DNA of 53,324 nucleotides from Microcaldota archaeon (lineage in GTDB: Archaea > Micrarchaeota > Micrarchaeia > Micrarchaeales > Micrarchaeaceae), in the NCBI GenBank assembly GCA_021848125.1, contig JAJZMY010000009.1:1-53324 (forward strand), in the 5' to 3' direction. Shown here one piece after another: positions 8,436 to 25,330 of this stretch; the first letter of the stretch is position 1, and every line of letters begins with the position of its first letter. The position numbers and the translations under genes were made by a program. The notes beneath the pieces were generated by a model, which did not search any database, was not told the DNA's origin, and saw only the letters and a list, made by a program, of their open reading frames with translations.

Positions 8436-8601
8436 CATTACTTTAATCTTATTGAATCCAGATTCATTGGTGCTCTTGAATCCGCATTTGTAATTTTTCT
8501 TAAAATGTCTGCAAGATCTTCGCATTTTTGCTCTTCGCCATGCATTGTAAATATTTTGCTTGGCCTTGGCCTTAAATCTTTTACAAAATCAATTAACTGC
8601 C
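8436..8601. repeat. Direct repeat copy A: orphan 3' end of the aCPSF1 gene
   Basis: A 166-bp segment identical base for base to 13198-13363. It consists of the last 164 bases of the aCPSF1 coding sequence (minus strand), including the stop codon, plus two bases beyond. There is no upstream remainder of the gene here, so this copy is an untranslated fragment. It lends its final bases to the methyltransferase reading frame, whose stop lies inside the repeat (8589-8591). It marks the left boundary of the inserted island. Before insertion, this would have been the native gene end abutting 8435. Confidence 0.95.
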
Positions 8602-9323
8602 ACTAGGTATTTTGCAGTTATTCTCTTTTTAATTACTGCTATAAATGTTTCATCATGACCTATGAACCTATCAACATACCACTCAGTACCATCAATTAAA
8701 GAGAGGACATCATTTTTAGAAGCATATAAAAATTTAAACCAATTCCCTTTATAAGTTTGATACCTTAAACGGAGTCTTAACTGCCCAGGCATTTTATTTT
8801 TTTTGATATTTTTTTTCATATATTTAATAAATGCAGGGTTTGTTATAGTATTGGGATCTCTAGATTCTCCGAGGATTATTGCATCTTTATTAGTTATTTT
8901 AGCTATTTTAGAAAGAATTAATTTAGCTTTTTTTGGTGTTTGTAATAACCCAAAATTTCTACCAAAAAGAACAATGCTATTAAAGTTTTTATAATTAAGT
9001 TTTTCTATATCAGAAATACTTAAAACTCTACTTTTTTTAAGCCCACTGTTTTTGCAAATTTTTATTGCAATTGGAGATACATCTATATTTGTAACATCTA
9101 TTTTTTTAGTTTTTAGATACTTTCCAACTCTACCTGGCCCACAACCAATATCTAATACAGGGCCTTGTATAAGGTTTATTGCAATTTTTTCAATTTTTGG
9201 CCATTTAGTAAATTCAGAAAAATAGGATTTGGGCGATGTTAAATCTATGCATCCATCATCTCGCTCTATTATTTCATGGATGTTTCCATACTTAATATAT
9301 GCAAGAAGTTCTTGACCAAACAC
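8589..9323 (-). CDS. Class I SAM-dependent methyltransferase, island cargo
   Basis: A Rossmann-fold methyltransferase with motif I VLDIGCGPGRVGKYL (about residues 55-69), motif II VTNIDVSPIAIKIC and post-motifs consistent with small-molecule or peptide methylation. The substrate is unknown. It directly follows the rSAM gene (28-base gap). The GTG at 9323 is the conventional start, but AGTG-N5-ATA places a possible AUA start at 9341, adding six residues. The natural family end would be near AVIKKR; the last residues and stop codon come from the aCPSF1 repeat, so the original 3' end was replaced at the junction. It probably acts with the rSAM enzyme. Confidence 0.85.
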   Translation of the reverse strand: MFGQELLAYIKYGNIHEIIERDDGCIDLTSPKSYFSEFTKWPKIEKIAINLIQGPVLDIGCGPGRVGKYLKTKKIDVTNIDVSPIAIKICKNSGLKKSRVLSISDIEKLNYKNFNSIVLFGRNFGLLQTPKKAKLILSKIAKITNKDAIILGESRDPNTITNPAFIKYMKKNIKKNKMPGQLRLRLRYQTYKGNWFKFLYASKNDVLSLIDGTEWYVDRFIGHDETFIAVIKKRITAKYLVAVN

Positions 9324-9351
9324 ATCTGTTATTTTATTTATGCTATCACTA

Positions 9352-10731
9352 TTAATTATAATTTAAATTTTTGATATATTCATATAGTACTAATTTTCTA
9401 TAATTGCATAATTCTCTATTTTCTCCAGCTTTATCAAAACTGCCATAATTGTTGTAAGATTCTTTTGTACAACCCCCACCACATTTTACAGGGCAAAAAG
9501 AACATTGCTTAAACTTAGAAATATCTCTTTTCTTACTTATTTTATATAATTTAGTTTTATTTATATTAATTTTACCCCTATTTAATATTTTACCTATTTG
9601 TAATTCCGATACAGGATCTACACATGCATAAAATTTATTGTCCAAACTTAAAGTAATTGATGAACCTCTGATATAGCTGCAAGTTTTACAAGAAAGAAGA
9701 TTAGTACCTATAGCTGGAAGAAGATTCGAAGTAATTTTAAAGTTGTTCTTTTTTGCAAAAATTAAAGCTTTTGCAAAGTTAACAACCAATGCATGCATAT
9801 TGGGTTTTGCAGATAGGAAGTTCTTTGCTCTACCACTAATTACAATTGGCTCTATGCGTACCTTATTAAATCCCATAGCCTTTAAGTTATTTATTACTTT
9901 GATAAATTTTCGTTCTATACCATTACATGCAGTAATCCTAACATAAGCAATATCTGATATATGTCTATATTTCTTAATCTCTGTTAAGGTTTTTAATATT
10001 TCCTTGGAGGTATCAAATTTATCGCTACCCCTATACTTATTAGTTAATTCGTCAAGACCATCATAAGAGATCTGCATTTTTACCTTATTATCAATAAAAT
10101 ATTTTATAATTTCTTCTCGTTTTTTCAGATATACTCCATTAGTATCTATTCGATAATTAATATTTAAATCCTTACAACTTTCTATTATTTGTTTTATTTT
10201 ATCAAATGTTAATGTTGGTTCGCCCATACCAAAAAATAAAACATTATTTGGTTTAAGAGTTCTTATTGCCAATTGAGCTGAATCTATATTAATCGTTGAT
10301 TTTATAATTGGATTGGCCCTATTTTTTATTACGCTACTGATCTCTCCTCCAAAAGCATAGCAATATTTACATTTTAAGTTACATAAATTAGTCATAATTA
10401 AGGTTAGATTATTTATTCTTGTGGATATAGATTCTTCTTCATTATAAGCAGACTTAGTAATAACATTATATGCAGCTAAAGAAATATAAAAAAAATTATT
10501 TAACAGTTCAGGATTAGCAGAAATATCTTTTTTAGATTTTAATTTTTTATTATTTTTAAGAAATTTATATTGAATAGAGTTAAGTTTTGTCGCAGAATTA
10601 AAATAAGGAGAATACACAAATATATTTTTACGATCATTAATGAAATATAATTCTGGATTTAAAATTTTTGGATATACTGCATCTGAATCCGCTTTTAATT
10701 CAGACCAGTCAGATAAATTTTTTATTTTTAT
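9352..10731 (-). CDS. Radical SAM/SPASM-domain peptide- or protein-modifying enzyme
   Basis: The radical SAM core has the cluster motif CNLKCKYC and a GGEP-like GMGEPTL. It is followed by a SPASM-type C-terminus with CKTC, an isolated Cys (FYACVDP) and CSFCPVKCGGGC plus a final Cys, enough for two auxiliary 4Fe-4S clusters. Such enzymes (anaerobic sulfatase maturase and RiPP maturase relatives) modify peptides or proteins by carbon-centred radical chemistry. I extend the N-terminus to an AUA codon at 10731: the frame stays open, the added residues look like a maturase N-terminal domain, and GGTG lies exactly five bases upstream. The conservative start is the GTG at 10617, giving 421 aa. It is preceded by a 39-aa peptide gene. 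Confidence 0.85.
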   Translation of the reverse strand: MKIKNLSDWSELKADSDAVYPKILNPELYFINDRKNIFVYSPYFNSATKLNSIQYKFLKNNKKLKSKKDISANPELLNNFFYISLAAYNVITKSAYNEEESISTRINNLTLIMTNLCNLKCKYCYAFGGEISSVIKNRANPIIKSTINIDSAQLAIRTLKPNNVLFFGMGEPTLTFDKIKQIIESCKDLNINYRIDTNGVYLKKREEIIKYFIDNKVKMQISYDGLDELTNKYRGSDKFDTSKEILKTLTEIKKYRHISDIAYVRITACNGIERKFIKVINNLKAMGFNKVRIEPIVISGRAKNFLSAKPNMHALVVNFAKALIFAKKNNFKITSNLLPAIGTNLLSCKTCSYIRGSSITLSLDNKFYACVDPVSELQIGKILNRGKININKTKLYKISKKRDISKFKQCSFCPVKCGGGCTKESYNNYGSFDKAGENRELCNYRKLVLYEYIKNLNYN

Positions 10732-10739
10732 AATAACAC

Positions 10740-10859
10740 CTATGATTTAAGTTTATTTTTAACAGATTCATCATTGCGGGAAAGAGATTTAATCACATTT
10801 ATATGCTTAATCTTTAAGTCTAGTAGATATAACAAATCCTTCCCTAAACCTTCTGACAT
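10740..10859 (-). CDS. Small peptide gene (39 aa) directly upstream of the rSAM enzyme
   Basis: ATG at 10859 lies eight bases after the Fic stop. A GAGG ribosome-binding motif falls in the Fic stop region, and the gene ends nine bases before the rSAM start. The product begins MSEGLGKDLLYLLDLK and ends VKNKLKS: a short acidic-to-hydrophobic leader-like helix, then a basic serine/lysine tail with no cysteine. Its position fits a precursor peptide for the rSAM/methyltransferase pair or a small binding partner. No known precursor motif is visible. Existence is supported by spacing and coding continuity, function only by context. Confidence 0.6.
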   Translation of the reverse strand: MSEGLGKDLLYLLDLKIKHINVIKSLSRNDESVKNKLKS

Positions 10860-21730: not shown

Positions 21731-23140
21731 ATGACGATTATGAAAAATATATCTGATGAAAAAGAATATAAGAAAAATTATGGGTTTAATGATAAAATTA
21801 AATATAAATTAAAGGTTGAAAAAGGATTGTCAGAAGAGGTGATTAAAAAAATTTCATTAATAAAGAAGGAACCTGAATGGATGCTTAAAAAAAGGCTTGA
21901 TGCTTATAGAATTTTCAAATCAAAACCCATTCCAGATTGGGGACCTGATTTAAAAGAGATTAATTTTAATGATATTTATTATTATATAAGTGCTTCTGAC
22001 TTTAAAACAAATAAATGGGAGGAAGTGCCTGATGAAATAAAAAAAACATTTGAAAAATTAGGTGTGCCTGAATTTGAAAGAAAATTTTTTGCAGGCGTTG
22101 AAAATCAATATGATTCAGAGGCTATTTATTCAAGTATTAGAGAGGATTTAAAAAAGCAGGGTATTATATTTACAGATACTGATACTGCTCTTAAAAAATA
22201 TCCTGAAATAATAAAAAAATATTTTGGGACTGTTATTCCAGTAAATGATAATAAATTTTCATCTTTAAATACAGCAGTTTGGAGTGGGGGTAGTTTTTTA
22301 TATGTCCCAAAAAATGTAAAATTAAAAATGCCATTGCAGGCATACTTTAGAATTAATGCAAAAAATCTTGGGCAGTTTGAGAGAACATTGATTATTGCAG
22401 AAGAAAATTCAGAAGTAACTTATATTGAGGGATGTTCAGCGCCCATATATTCAAGTTTTGCATTACATAATGGTGTTGTTGAAATAATTGCTAATAAAAA
22501 TGCGCATGTTAAATATATCACAATACAGAACTGGTCAAAAAATGTCTATAATTTAGTAACGCAGAGGGCAATTGCAAAAGAAAAGTCGCATGTTGAATGG
22601 ATTGATTGTAATGTTGGAAGCAAAATAAATATGAAATACCCATGTATTTATTTGAAAGAAAAAGATGCTATTGGGGAAATTCTTTCAGTTGCAATAGCAA
22701 AAGATGGCCAGATACATGATAATGGGGGGAAGATATTTCATCTTGCACCTGGCACTAAATCAAAAATTATTGCAAAAAATATAAGCATTGGAAATGGCAA
22801 TTCCACATTCAGAAGCACTTTGTTTGTTTCAAAAAATGCCAAGAATGTAAATGCATTTCAAAAATGCGATTCAATTTTAATTGATAATGAATCAAAAACA
22901 AACACATTCCCATACATTAAAATAAATGCAAATGACGCTAATATTAATCATGAAGCAAGCACTGGCAGAATAAATGAAGAAAATTTATTTTATTTGATGT
23001 CAAGAGGCTTAAATAGAGAGGATGCAATAGCAATAATTTTATTGGGCTTCTTAGATCCGTTAATAAAAGAGCTGCCATTAGAATATAGCATTGAATTAAA
23101 AAGGTTATTGAAATTAGATACAAATAATGCAATTGCATAA
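21731..23140 (+). CDS. sufB: SufB, Fe-S cluster scaffold subunit
   Basis: SufB is the core scaffold of the SufBCD complex, on which Fe-S clusters are assembled from sulfur delivered by SufS/SufU. The 469-residue protein shows the SufB hallmarks WSGGSFLYVPKNVKLKMPLQ, QFERTLIIAEENSEVTYIEGCSAP and the C-terminal NHEASTGRINEENLFYLMSRGL. It opens the six-gene suf operon. In-frame starts are ATG 21731 and ATG 21740; neither has a clear GGTG. The 205-base upstream region is AT-rich and carries the operon promoter. Confidence 0.95.
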   Translation: MTIMKNISDEKEYKKNYGFNDKIKYKLKVEKGLSEEVIKKISLIKKEPEWMLKKRLDAYRIFKSKPIPDWGPDLKEINFNDIYYYISASDFKTNKWEEVPDEIKKTFEKLGVPEFERKFFAGVENQYDSEAIYSSIREDLKKQGIIFTDTDTALKKYPEIIKKYFGTVIPVNDNKFSSLNTAVWSGGSFLYVPKNVKLKMPLQAYFRINAKNLGQFERTLIIAEENSEVTYIEGCSAPIYSSFALHNGVVEIIANKNAHVKYITIQNWSKNVYNLVTQRAIAKEKSHVEWIDCNVGSKINMKYPCIYLKEKDAIGEILSVAIAKDGQIHDNGGKIFHLAPGTKSKIIAKNISIGNGNSTFRSTLFVSKNAKNVNAFQKCDSILIDNESKTNTFPYIKINANDANINHEASTGRINEENLFYLMSRGLNREDAIAIILLGFLDPLIKELPLEYSIELKRLLKLDTNNAIA

Positions 23141-23151
23141 TTGGTGATATT

Positions 23152-24279
23152 ATTAATAAAAATAAAAAAAAGGATATTGAAATAATTAAAAATAATGAAC
23201 ATGAAAGGCAATTATTTAAAAGAGAGAATATTGAAATACCAATTAAAAATACAAACTCCAAAAAAATTAGAATAAAATTTATTGATTCAAGTAAAATTAA
23301 AGAAATAGCAGAGCCATTTAACTCAAATTATTTATCTTTTAATATTATTTTTAAAGATAATGAAGTTTTAGTCGATAAGCAGTATAAAAATATAATTAAA
23401 ATAGAAAATAAAAGTGCCATTAAAATTATTAATAAATTAAAACATATTAAACTTATAAATATTGATAATCAAGCTCTTGATATAAAATACCCTATTTTAA
23501 TTGATATATTACCGGATTTAAAAAACCTGAATATATTAAATTTTGGAAAAAATAATTTAGCGCTCATTGTTAATTGCCATGAAAATGCAAAACTTGATTT
23601 ATTGGAATATAATCAAAATAATGCATTTGTAATTATAAAACACTTAATAAATTTAAAAAGAAATTCAAAACTTAATTTTAATATAATTAATGATCAAAAA
23701 AACTACACATTACTAACTAATGTCAGTTTAATGGAATATAATTCTGAATTAAATTTTAATTCAATATATAGCAATGGATTAATTACAAGGGTAAAAAATT
23801 ATTTTTATCCTGGAAAAAATAGTAAGTTAAATATAAATGATATTGTTTTAGGTAGAAATAATGAAAAATTTGATATTTACTCAAATATTATAAACAATGA
23901 AAAAAATGTGAAGAGCAATCTAAAAGCAAAAGCAGTTGTATTAGGACAATCAGAATGTTTATTAAAATCTATTTCAACACTTCTAGAAAACTCGGAAAAT
24001 ACCTATTCTAACATAAGTCATAATGGGATTATTAGAGGTAATGGAAAATTTTATTCTTTTCCATTTATACTTGTTAAACAAAAAAATGTAAATGCAACGC
24101 ATAATTCATCAATTAGTAGTATTAGTGAAGAGGATAAATTTTATTTGATGACACGAGGAATGGATAAAACAAACATTGAAAAATTTTTAATTAATGAATT
24201 TATTTTTTCGGATTTAGAACAGGATTATAAATATGCATCGAAATTTATTGAAACAAAACTATTAAGGCTGATGAAATGA
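23152..24279 (+). CDS. sufD: SufD, partner of SufB, probable AUU start
   Basis: SufD forms a heterodimer with SufB and contributes to cluster assembly and iron acquisition. The C-terminal half shows the family pattern: THNSSISSISEEDKFYLMTRGMDKTNIEKFLINEF parallels the SufB ending. The open frame has no ATG, GTG or TTG start until TTG 23602, which would remove 150 residues of continuous coding sequence. GGTG-N5-ATT at 23143-23154 mirrors the GGTG-N5-ATG of other genes here, so I start at ATT 23152 (375 aa, somewhat short for SufD). Its stop overlaps the next ATG (ATGA). The N-terminal half is strongly diverged. Confidence 0.82.
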   Translation: MNKNKKKDIEIIKNNEHERQLFKRENIEIPIKNTNSKKIRIKFIDSSKIKEIAEPFNSNYLSFNIIFKDNEVLVDKQYKNIIKIENKSAIKIINKLKHIKLINIDNQALDIKYPILIDILPDLKNLNILNFGKNNLALIVNCHENAKLDLLEYNQNNAFVIIKHLINLKRNSKLNFNIINDQKNYTLLTNVSLMEYNSELNFNSIYSNGLITRVKNYFYPGKNSKLNINDIVLGRNNEKFDIYSNIINNEKNVKSNLKAKAVVLGQSECLLKSISTLLENSENTYSNISHNGIIRGNGKFYSFPFILVKQKNVNATHNSSISSISEEDKFYLMTRGMDKTNIEKFLINEFIFSDLEQDYKYASKFIETKLLRLMK

Positions 24280-24587: not shown

Positions 24588-24598
24588 ATGGTGAAATA

Positions 24599-25330
24599 AT
24601 GGGATTAGAAATAAAAAACTTGGATGTTAAATTAGATGGTAGAGAAATCCTAAAAAAAATAAACTTAAATATTAAAAAGGGCGAATTACATGTAATAATG
24701 GGCCCGAATGGATCTGGAAAAACAACATTAGCCAAAGCAATAATGGGATACCAAAAATTAAAATTAAACGGAAAAATATTATTAGATCATAAAGATATAA
24801 CAGATTTTTCAACTGACAAAAGAGCAAGACTTGGGTTATTTTTACAATTCCAAAATCCTGCCGAAATAAAAGATATTAGATTCATTAATTTTATGTATAA
24901 TTCATTTAATTCTATTTTTGAAAATACTGATGTTTTAGAGATGGAGAGGAGTCTCAAAAATAATTTGAAGATATTGAATATGAATGAAAATGTTTTGAAT
25001 AAAAATCTTAATTTTGGTTTTTCGGGTGGAGAAAAAAAGAAAATGGAAATATTACAGATGATGGCTTTAAAGCCAAAATTTGCAATGCTTGATGAACCCG
25101 ATTCAGGATTAGATGTTGATGCAATAAAGGTAATTGCCGATATAATAAACAATATTATTAAGACAAAACAAACAGGAATAATTTTAATTACACATTATAA
25201 TAAAATGATTTCATATTTAAATCCTAACTTTATTCATATTTTAATAGATGGAAAAATTATTAAATCTGGCAAAAAAGAACTTGCACAATCAATTGAAAAA
25301 TATGGGTTTGAAAAATATAAGAATAAATGA
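24599..25330 (+). CDS. sufC: SufC, ABC ATPase of the Suf complex
   Basis: The ABC-type ATPase that drives conformational change in SufBCD. Walker A is GPNGSGKTTLAK, the ABC signature FGFSGGEKKKMEILQ, Walker B FAMLDEPDSGLDVD, with a His switch in LITHYNK. The length of 243 is normal. The ATG at 24599 has GGTG five bases upstream; the longer frame upstream overlaps the HTH gene and is not needed. The stop is four bases before the sufS ATG. Confidence 0.95.
   Translation: MGLEIKNLDVKLDGREILKKINLNIKKGELHVIMGPNGSGKTTLAKAIMGYQKLKLNGKILLDHKDITDFSTDKRARLGLFLQFQNPAEIKDIRFINFMYNSFNSIFENTDVLEMERSLKNNLKILNMNENVLNKNLNFGFSGGEKKKMEILQMMALKPKFAMLDEPDSGLDVDAIKVIADIINNIIKTKQTGIILITHYNKMISYLNPNFIHILIDGKIIKSGKKELAQSIEKYGFEKYKNK

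Follow-up and report, generated by a model that had tools for sequence, protein, structure and literature searches.

Introduction

Translation from an AUU codon is established for bacterial infC, the gene of the autocontrolled initiation factor IF3 (cited in PMC9845219), which is a lone regulated case in bacteria. Near-cognate codons likewise initiate translation at several chloroplast genes, which are read by a translation system of the prokaryotic type (PMC9845219). Ordinary Shine-Dalgarno (SD)-led initiation in archaea (PMC7531240) shares with the lineage described here the pairing with 16S rRNA, a spacing of ~5–7 bases, an initiator tRNA with anticodon CAU and the factors aIF1 and aIF1A. 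However, it uses AUG, GUG and UUG, whereas AUU, AUA and AUC are the codons at issue here. A 2020 review of archaeal initiation lists AUG, GUG and UUG, while AUU and AUA go unmentioned (PMC7531240). In the open-access full text that we searched, which leaves out most subscription papers, no paper on AUA or AUU starts in Micrarchaeota or DPANN was found. Initiation at near-cognate codons led by an SD is itself known; the new part would be its occurrence at several genes within an archaeal lineage.

The DNA analyzed here (“the window”) is a stretch of 53,324 nucleotides from a Microcaldota archaeon, an organism of the Micrarchaeota. Its genome assembly (G000) comprises 776 kb in 41 contigs, with a GC content of 28% in the part read. 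G003 denotes a relative in the same genus. All evidence stems from metagenome assemblies without inspection of reads, and there are no protein or ribosome-profiling data. ATH (AUH in the mRNA) stands for ATA, ATT or ATC.

The suf cluster and the proposed start site of sufD

The sufB gene (21731–23140, + strand) starts with ATG and scores 661.9 bits with TIGR01980, above the cut-off; the best named match of its product is from Candidatus Micrarchaeota FK4.bin48 (70% identical). It is followed by an open frame spanning 23128–24279, in which we place the sufD coding sequence at 23152–24279 (+ strand; 375 codons plus stop). This assignment rests on a profile match, a motif alignment and the substitution pattern over codon positions. 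A preliminary description of the locus had called the frame continuous SufD-like coding sequence, which held: the profile search matched PF01458 (SUFBD_core) with E=2.5e-27, above the gathering score. The top NCBIfam match was TIGR01981 (sufD), but at 101 bits against a cut-off of 222 the curated equivalog threshold was missed. We infer from sequence alone that the protein is a divergent SufD homolog of the SUF system for Fe-S assembly. Downstream of sufD follow an HTH gene, sufC and a SufS-like gene. The small HTH protein between sufD and sufC (PF01381; 24276–24587, + strand, in the window; L003 1184–1501, - strand, in G003) carries paired C-terminal cysteine motifs, CKLCKKTYDFC in the window and CKICKNSY in G003, and might serve as a regulator of the suf operon.

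The sufB stop codon TAA (23138–23140) ends 11 nt upstream of the proposed start of sufD, and the sequence from the end of sufB reads GCA TAA TT GGTGAT ATT ATT AAT AAA. The hexamer GGTGAT (23143–23148, + strand) is a 6-nt match to the 3' end of the genome's own 16S rRNA, GAUCACCU. The 16S rRNA 3' ends read GGATAGATCACCTAAAA in G000 and GGATAGATCACCTATAA in G003, from which the SD AGGTGATC follows. GGTG occupies 23143–23146 and is followed by the five bases ATATT and then by ATT at 23152–23154 (+ strand), as the preliminary description had stated. ATG starts cluster at 5–7 bases past GGTG, and within the same cluster sufC has an ordinary ATG at exactly this spacing of five (GGTG-AAATA-ATG, 24590–24601, + strand; TIGR01978, 281.9 bits). 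Also correct was the claim that ATG, GTG and TTG are absent from the first 150 codons, which holds exactly if ATT 23152 is taken as the first codon. The first standard codon in the frame, TTG at 23602–23604 (+ strand), is codon 151 on this count and would be taken as the start of sufD by a standard gene finder; the second is ATG 23731.

We consider it likely that sufD is a genuine gene and is translated from ATT 23152, because an SD stands at the proper spacing, because a conserved N-terminus lacks any standard start, and because an equivalent arrangement with ATA exists in G003. This is an inference from sequence without protein data. Since an ATH codon occurs at any one given site of such AT-rich DNA in ~13% of cases and is thus not rare, support for the exact codon comes from the spacing rule and not from codon identity. 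The neighboring ATT 23149, at spacing 2, remains a possible alternative. A hairpin in the sufD leader was no stronger than in shuffled sequence (z -0.9).

Conservation of the startless arrangement in a relative

The SufD proteins of G003 and the window are only 37–39% identical. The G003 frame opens CAT AAA GGT GAT TTT ATA ATT ACA, i.e. GGTGAT-TTT-ATA after the sufB stop, which lies 10 nt upstream of the ATA. This ATA occupies the same GGTG-N5 position as ATT in the window, and no standard codon follows until 75 codons past it. Hence, the SD, its spacing and the lack of a standard start are all kept between two genomes whose SufD proteins have diverged far.

One rival explanation holds that SufD is made from the internal TTG 23602 as a protein of 225 aa and that the upstream frame is untranslated. 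In its favor, this TTG is the first standard in-frame start codon. However, the region 5' of it encodes a SufD N-terminal motif as well as part of the SUFBD core match. In an alignment with 22 SufD proteins of relatives the motif, E..ELYK.Y, lies ~17 residues past ATT, close to where it stands relative to Met in those proteins, and the TTG comes another 128 codons later. Moreover, the region is conserved with G003 as protein (31% identical residues). The differences between the two genomes number 63, 46 and 71 at codon positions 1, 2 and 3, and since position 2 changes least, the region behaves as coding sequence. Finally, the first standard codon of G003 is found elsewhere, at codon 75 after ATA. 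We therefore regard a start at TTG as very unlikely.

A second rival invokes a start at TTG 23141 or GTG 23144, which lie in the sufB frame just past the sufB stop, followed by a -1 slip on the run of eight A residues in AAATAAAAAAAAGG, or else a one-base assembly error at this run. Indeed, the frame that would enter sufD by a -1 slip stays open from GTG 23144 past the A run. However, no SD precedes this GTG, and the equivalent sequence in G003, GTG ATT TTA TAA, meets a stop within four codons, lacks the A run and is followed by an equally startless sufD. The hallmarks of a programmed frameshift, i.e. upstream frame and slippery site, are thus not conserved in G003, and this explanation is likewise very improbable.

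The preliminary description had named a local assembly error or a pseudogene, the true ATG being misassembled or lost, as what would refute a non-AUG start. These readings are favored by the reliance on metagenome assemblies and by sufD being missing or partial in two further genomes, G001 and G002, both of which are incomplete assemblies. They are contradicted by 375 (G000) and 362 (G003) open codons that are startless at the same place, and by the recurrence of the startless pattern at other conserved genes, e.g. those for uS4 and aIF1A. For an assembly error to be the cause, separate assemblies would need to contain it at the same site, while a pseudogene is at odds with an intact frame conserved at the protein level in a relative, the conservation reaching the C-terminus. 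Both refutations failed, and we hold either reading to be very unlikely.

Across other Micrarchaeota, SufD mostly starts with ATG and at times with TTG. At the GGTG-N5 place, locus L018 has CTG (GGTG-TTTTT-CTG) and L098 has ACG (GGTG-ATAAC-ACG), where L099 has ATG.

Enrichment of ATH codons downstream of SD sequences

A scan for starts akin to the one suggested in the preliminary description covered 564 kb in G000 and 528 kb in G003. SD matches of at least 5 bases were collected and the codon at a fixed spacing was recorded, provided that it opened a frame of at least 80 codons and that a stop preceded it by no more than 12 codons. Spacing 5 offers a clean test, because here the GTG inside the SD lies in another frame and is ruled out as a start. 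At this spacing, ATA, ATT and ATC made up 9 of 17 non-standard codons in G000, as compared to 49 of 362 at spacings 9–24 (Fisher p=2.3e-4). In G003 the corresponding figures were 14/27 and 64/537 (Fisher p=1.4e-6). The share of ATH at the control spacings was thus about 12–13%. When the SD match was raised to at least 6 bases in G000, all 12 codons at spacing 5 were ATN. By our own estimate, with the background subtracted, ATH codons provide about a fifth of the clearest starts at spacing 5 in the genus. No significant overall ATH excess was seen in 200 kb from each of four further Micrarchaeota genomes (GC 39–53%), and for this reason a general habit is firm for the genus only.

The counts are based on open reading frames and take in some that are not genes. 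Each genome was only partly read, G001 and G002 at few loci, and starts of uS4 across the family were left out. Raw lists of startless homologous frames were dropped as counts, as they consisted mostly of antisense shadows. The SD was not significantly stronger at ATH than at ATG starts. In G000, 8 of 9 ATH starts directly followed another gene as compared to 8 of 27 ATG starts, while no marked difference was seen in G003 (7/17 versus 10/35).

Cases at spacing 6 were rejected as proof; they concern uL29 in most genera, eS1, the RFC small subunit and the methionyl-tRNA synthetase (MetRS) of G001–G003. They are ambiguous, because the GTG of GGTG lies in frame three codons upstream of the candidate, and they were counted only when a stop separates the two. 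They are nonetheless compatible with an AUH start: no SD precedes the GTG, and the Ile codon aligns to the Met of uL29 in the sister family.

Candidate non-standard starts at other genes

The window holds a second candidate, a radical SAM gene (9355–10731, - strand; PF04055), for which an AUA start had been proposed. The arrangement held, with GGTG at 10740–10737, five bases and ATA at 10731–10729, and the first standard codon follows 38 codons past ATA; however, the relatives' sequence examined contained no ortholog able to confirm this start. For a methyltransferase gene (8592–9341, - strand), the AGTG-N5-ATA at 9350–9339 that had been put forward is present, but the case is weak since a standard codon comes 6 codons later.

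The strongest cases are genes in which orthologs or a directly neighboring stop pin the start. Residue 1 of uS4 is encoded by ATA directly behind TAA in G003, by ATG in G000 and G006, and by TTG in G012. For aEF1B, G003 has TAA-ATT where G000 and G006 have ATG. The MetRS start falls at one place in four genomes, reading TGA-ATT in G000, TGA-CTG in G006, TGA-GTG in G021 and ATG in G048. A conserved protein without a name begins TAA-ATC in G000 and TAA-ATT in G003, and an AAA ATPase begins with ATT in both. An FtsJ-like methyltransferase has ATA in G000, while G003 has ATG beside the aligned codon. In RNase HII of G003, ATA directly precedes the CGGDEAGRG motif. Starts of uL29 are ATC in G003 and G001, and in G003, where the gene has 65 codons, codons 1–36 include no standard one. 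For aIF1A, the start is ATT in G001, G002 and G003, and ATA in G022 and, right after TGA, in G014; it is likely also ATA in G007, G004, G019 and G010. The DNA around aIF1A of G022, G014, G007, G004, G019 and G010 has ~50% GC.

Some observations accompany these loci. A MetRS-like frame of G014 (C2:138123-139595, L362) contains one in-frame TAG. In almost all genera read in the window's family, uL29 shows a codon for Ile (ATA in most) six bases past GGTG (L318–L347). The sister family mostly has ATG at that site, and the in-frame GTG keeps most starts of the window's family ambiguous. Loci of aIF1A with ATT or ATA starts include L181 (13870–14208, + strand), L309, L310, L279 and L304.

The claim of real non-AUG initiation in this organism is supported, because of the ATA in G003, the N-terminus encoded upstream of the TTG, the ATH enrichment at spacing 5 in the genus and the codon swaps between orthologs of essential genes. 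This support comes from sequence evidence only, without protein data.

Control or tolerance

The preliminary description had also offered low-stoichiometry translational control of SufD, which is neither shown nor excluded. On this view AUU keeps SufD, and AUA or AUU keeps aIF1A, low or responsive to the level of initiation factors, as in bacterial infC. The established AUU autocontrol of infC speaks for it, as does the presence of ATA or ATT at aIF1A in several genera of ~50% GC, where AT pressure explains the codon poorly. Against it, SufD starts mostly with ATG or TTG in relatives, so no conserved control of sufD is evident, and housekeeping genes such as that for uS4 swap the codon between close relatives. 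Without expression data, control remains no more than a possibility; it is compatible with, and does not exclude, a real start at ATT 23152. We lean toward tolerance of such codons, driven by AT-rich mutation in the genus, over regulation, but the matter is unresolved.

The aIF1A gene of relatives is, like infC, an initiation factor gene with an AUU or AUA start, and autoregulation there is conceivable. Unlike infC, sufD is no initiation factor gene, and in contrast to the lone regulated case in bacteria the archaeal lineage has many unrelated genes with apparent AUH starts, for which control is not shown. The chloroplast case differs in domain of life, genes and machinery, and a shared origin is not implied. 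A bolder reading would be that a family of Micrarchaeota, most strongly the window's genus, regularly uses AUA, AUU and AUC for SD-led genes, including those for uS4, MetRS, aEF1B and aIF1A, and that the aIF1A starts are to archaea what the AUU control loop of infC is to bacteria. Taken as a whole, this reading could as well prove wrong as right.

Should AUH starts be routine, real genes of such genomes are shortened or missed by gene finders; sufD called from the TTG would lose 150 residues. Some apparent gene losses in reduced archaea may then be artefacts, and the lineage could serve as a natural test for the joint role of aIF1, aIF1A and the SD in setting start-codon stringency.

Initiator tRNA, initiation factors and a model for initiation

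A changed start code could also arise from a modified or extra initiator tRNA matching AUA or AUU. Indeed, G000 encodes a tRNA with anticodon UAU. However, this tRNA begins with G1 and resembles an ordinary elongator tRNA-Ile. Only a CAU tRNA shows initiator features (C41:52736-52810, - strand; A1:U72 and GGG/CCC in the anticodon stem), although three tRNA matches remained unread and base modification is invisible in DNA. On the tRNA genes read, an altered initiator appears very unlikely. The tRNA-Ile(UAU) gene itself is located at C18:12918-12992 (L048); such a tRNA is unusual in archaea, where AUA is as a rule read by a modified CAU tRNA.

The initiation factors, whose inspection had been suggested, are present (aIF1 and aIF1A). 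Family scores of aIF1 were lower in G001–G003, but a search for a special aIF1 of the genus revealed no decisive change. Since aIF1 of Pyrococcus abyssi acts in start-codon selection (PMC6237735), properties of the factors may by analogy contribute to AUH starts.

For the preferred reading, a sufD start at ATT 23152, we propose that the ribosome finishing sufB, or a new 30S subunit, would be held by the SD with AUU in the P site. The ordinary initiator Met-tRNA (CAU) would then read AUU with a mismatch at the third position, yielding an N-terminal methionine. The mismatch may be tolerated because the SD and the adjacent sufB stop fix the small subunit over AUU. In the lineage as a whole, near-cognate codons, mainly AUA, AUU and AUC and at times CUG or ACG, would be used where a good SD sets the position.

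In the 16S rRNA gene of G000 (C40:12173-13400, L093), 639 model positions are matched over 1228 nt. The gene thus contains an insert of ~590 nt with an open frame (KLNTKICYLIGLCNRNENSIYI...) of 168 codons from stop to stop, and this insert resembles an intron that bears a gene of its own.
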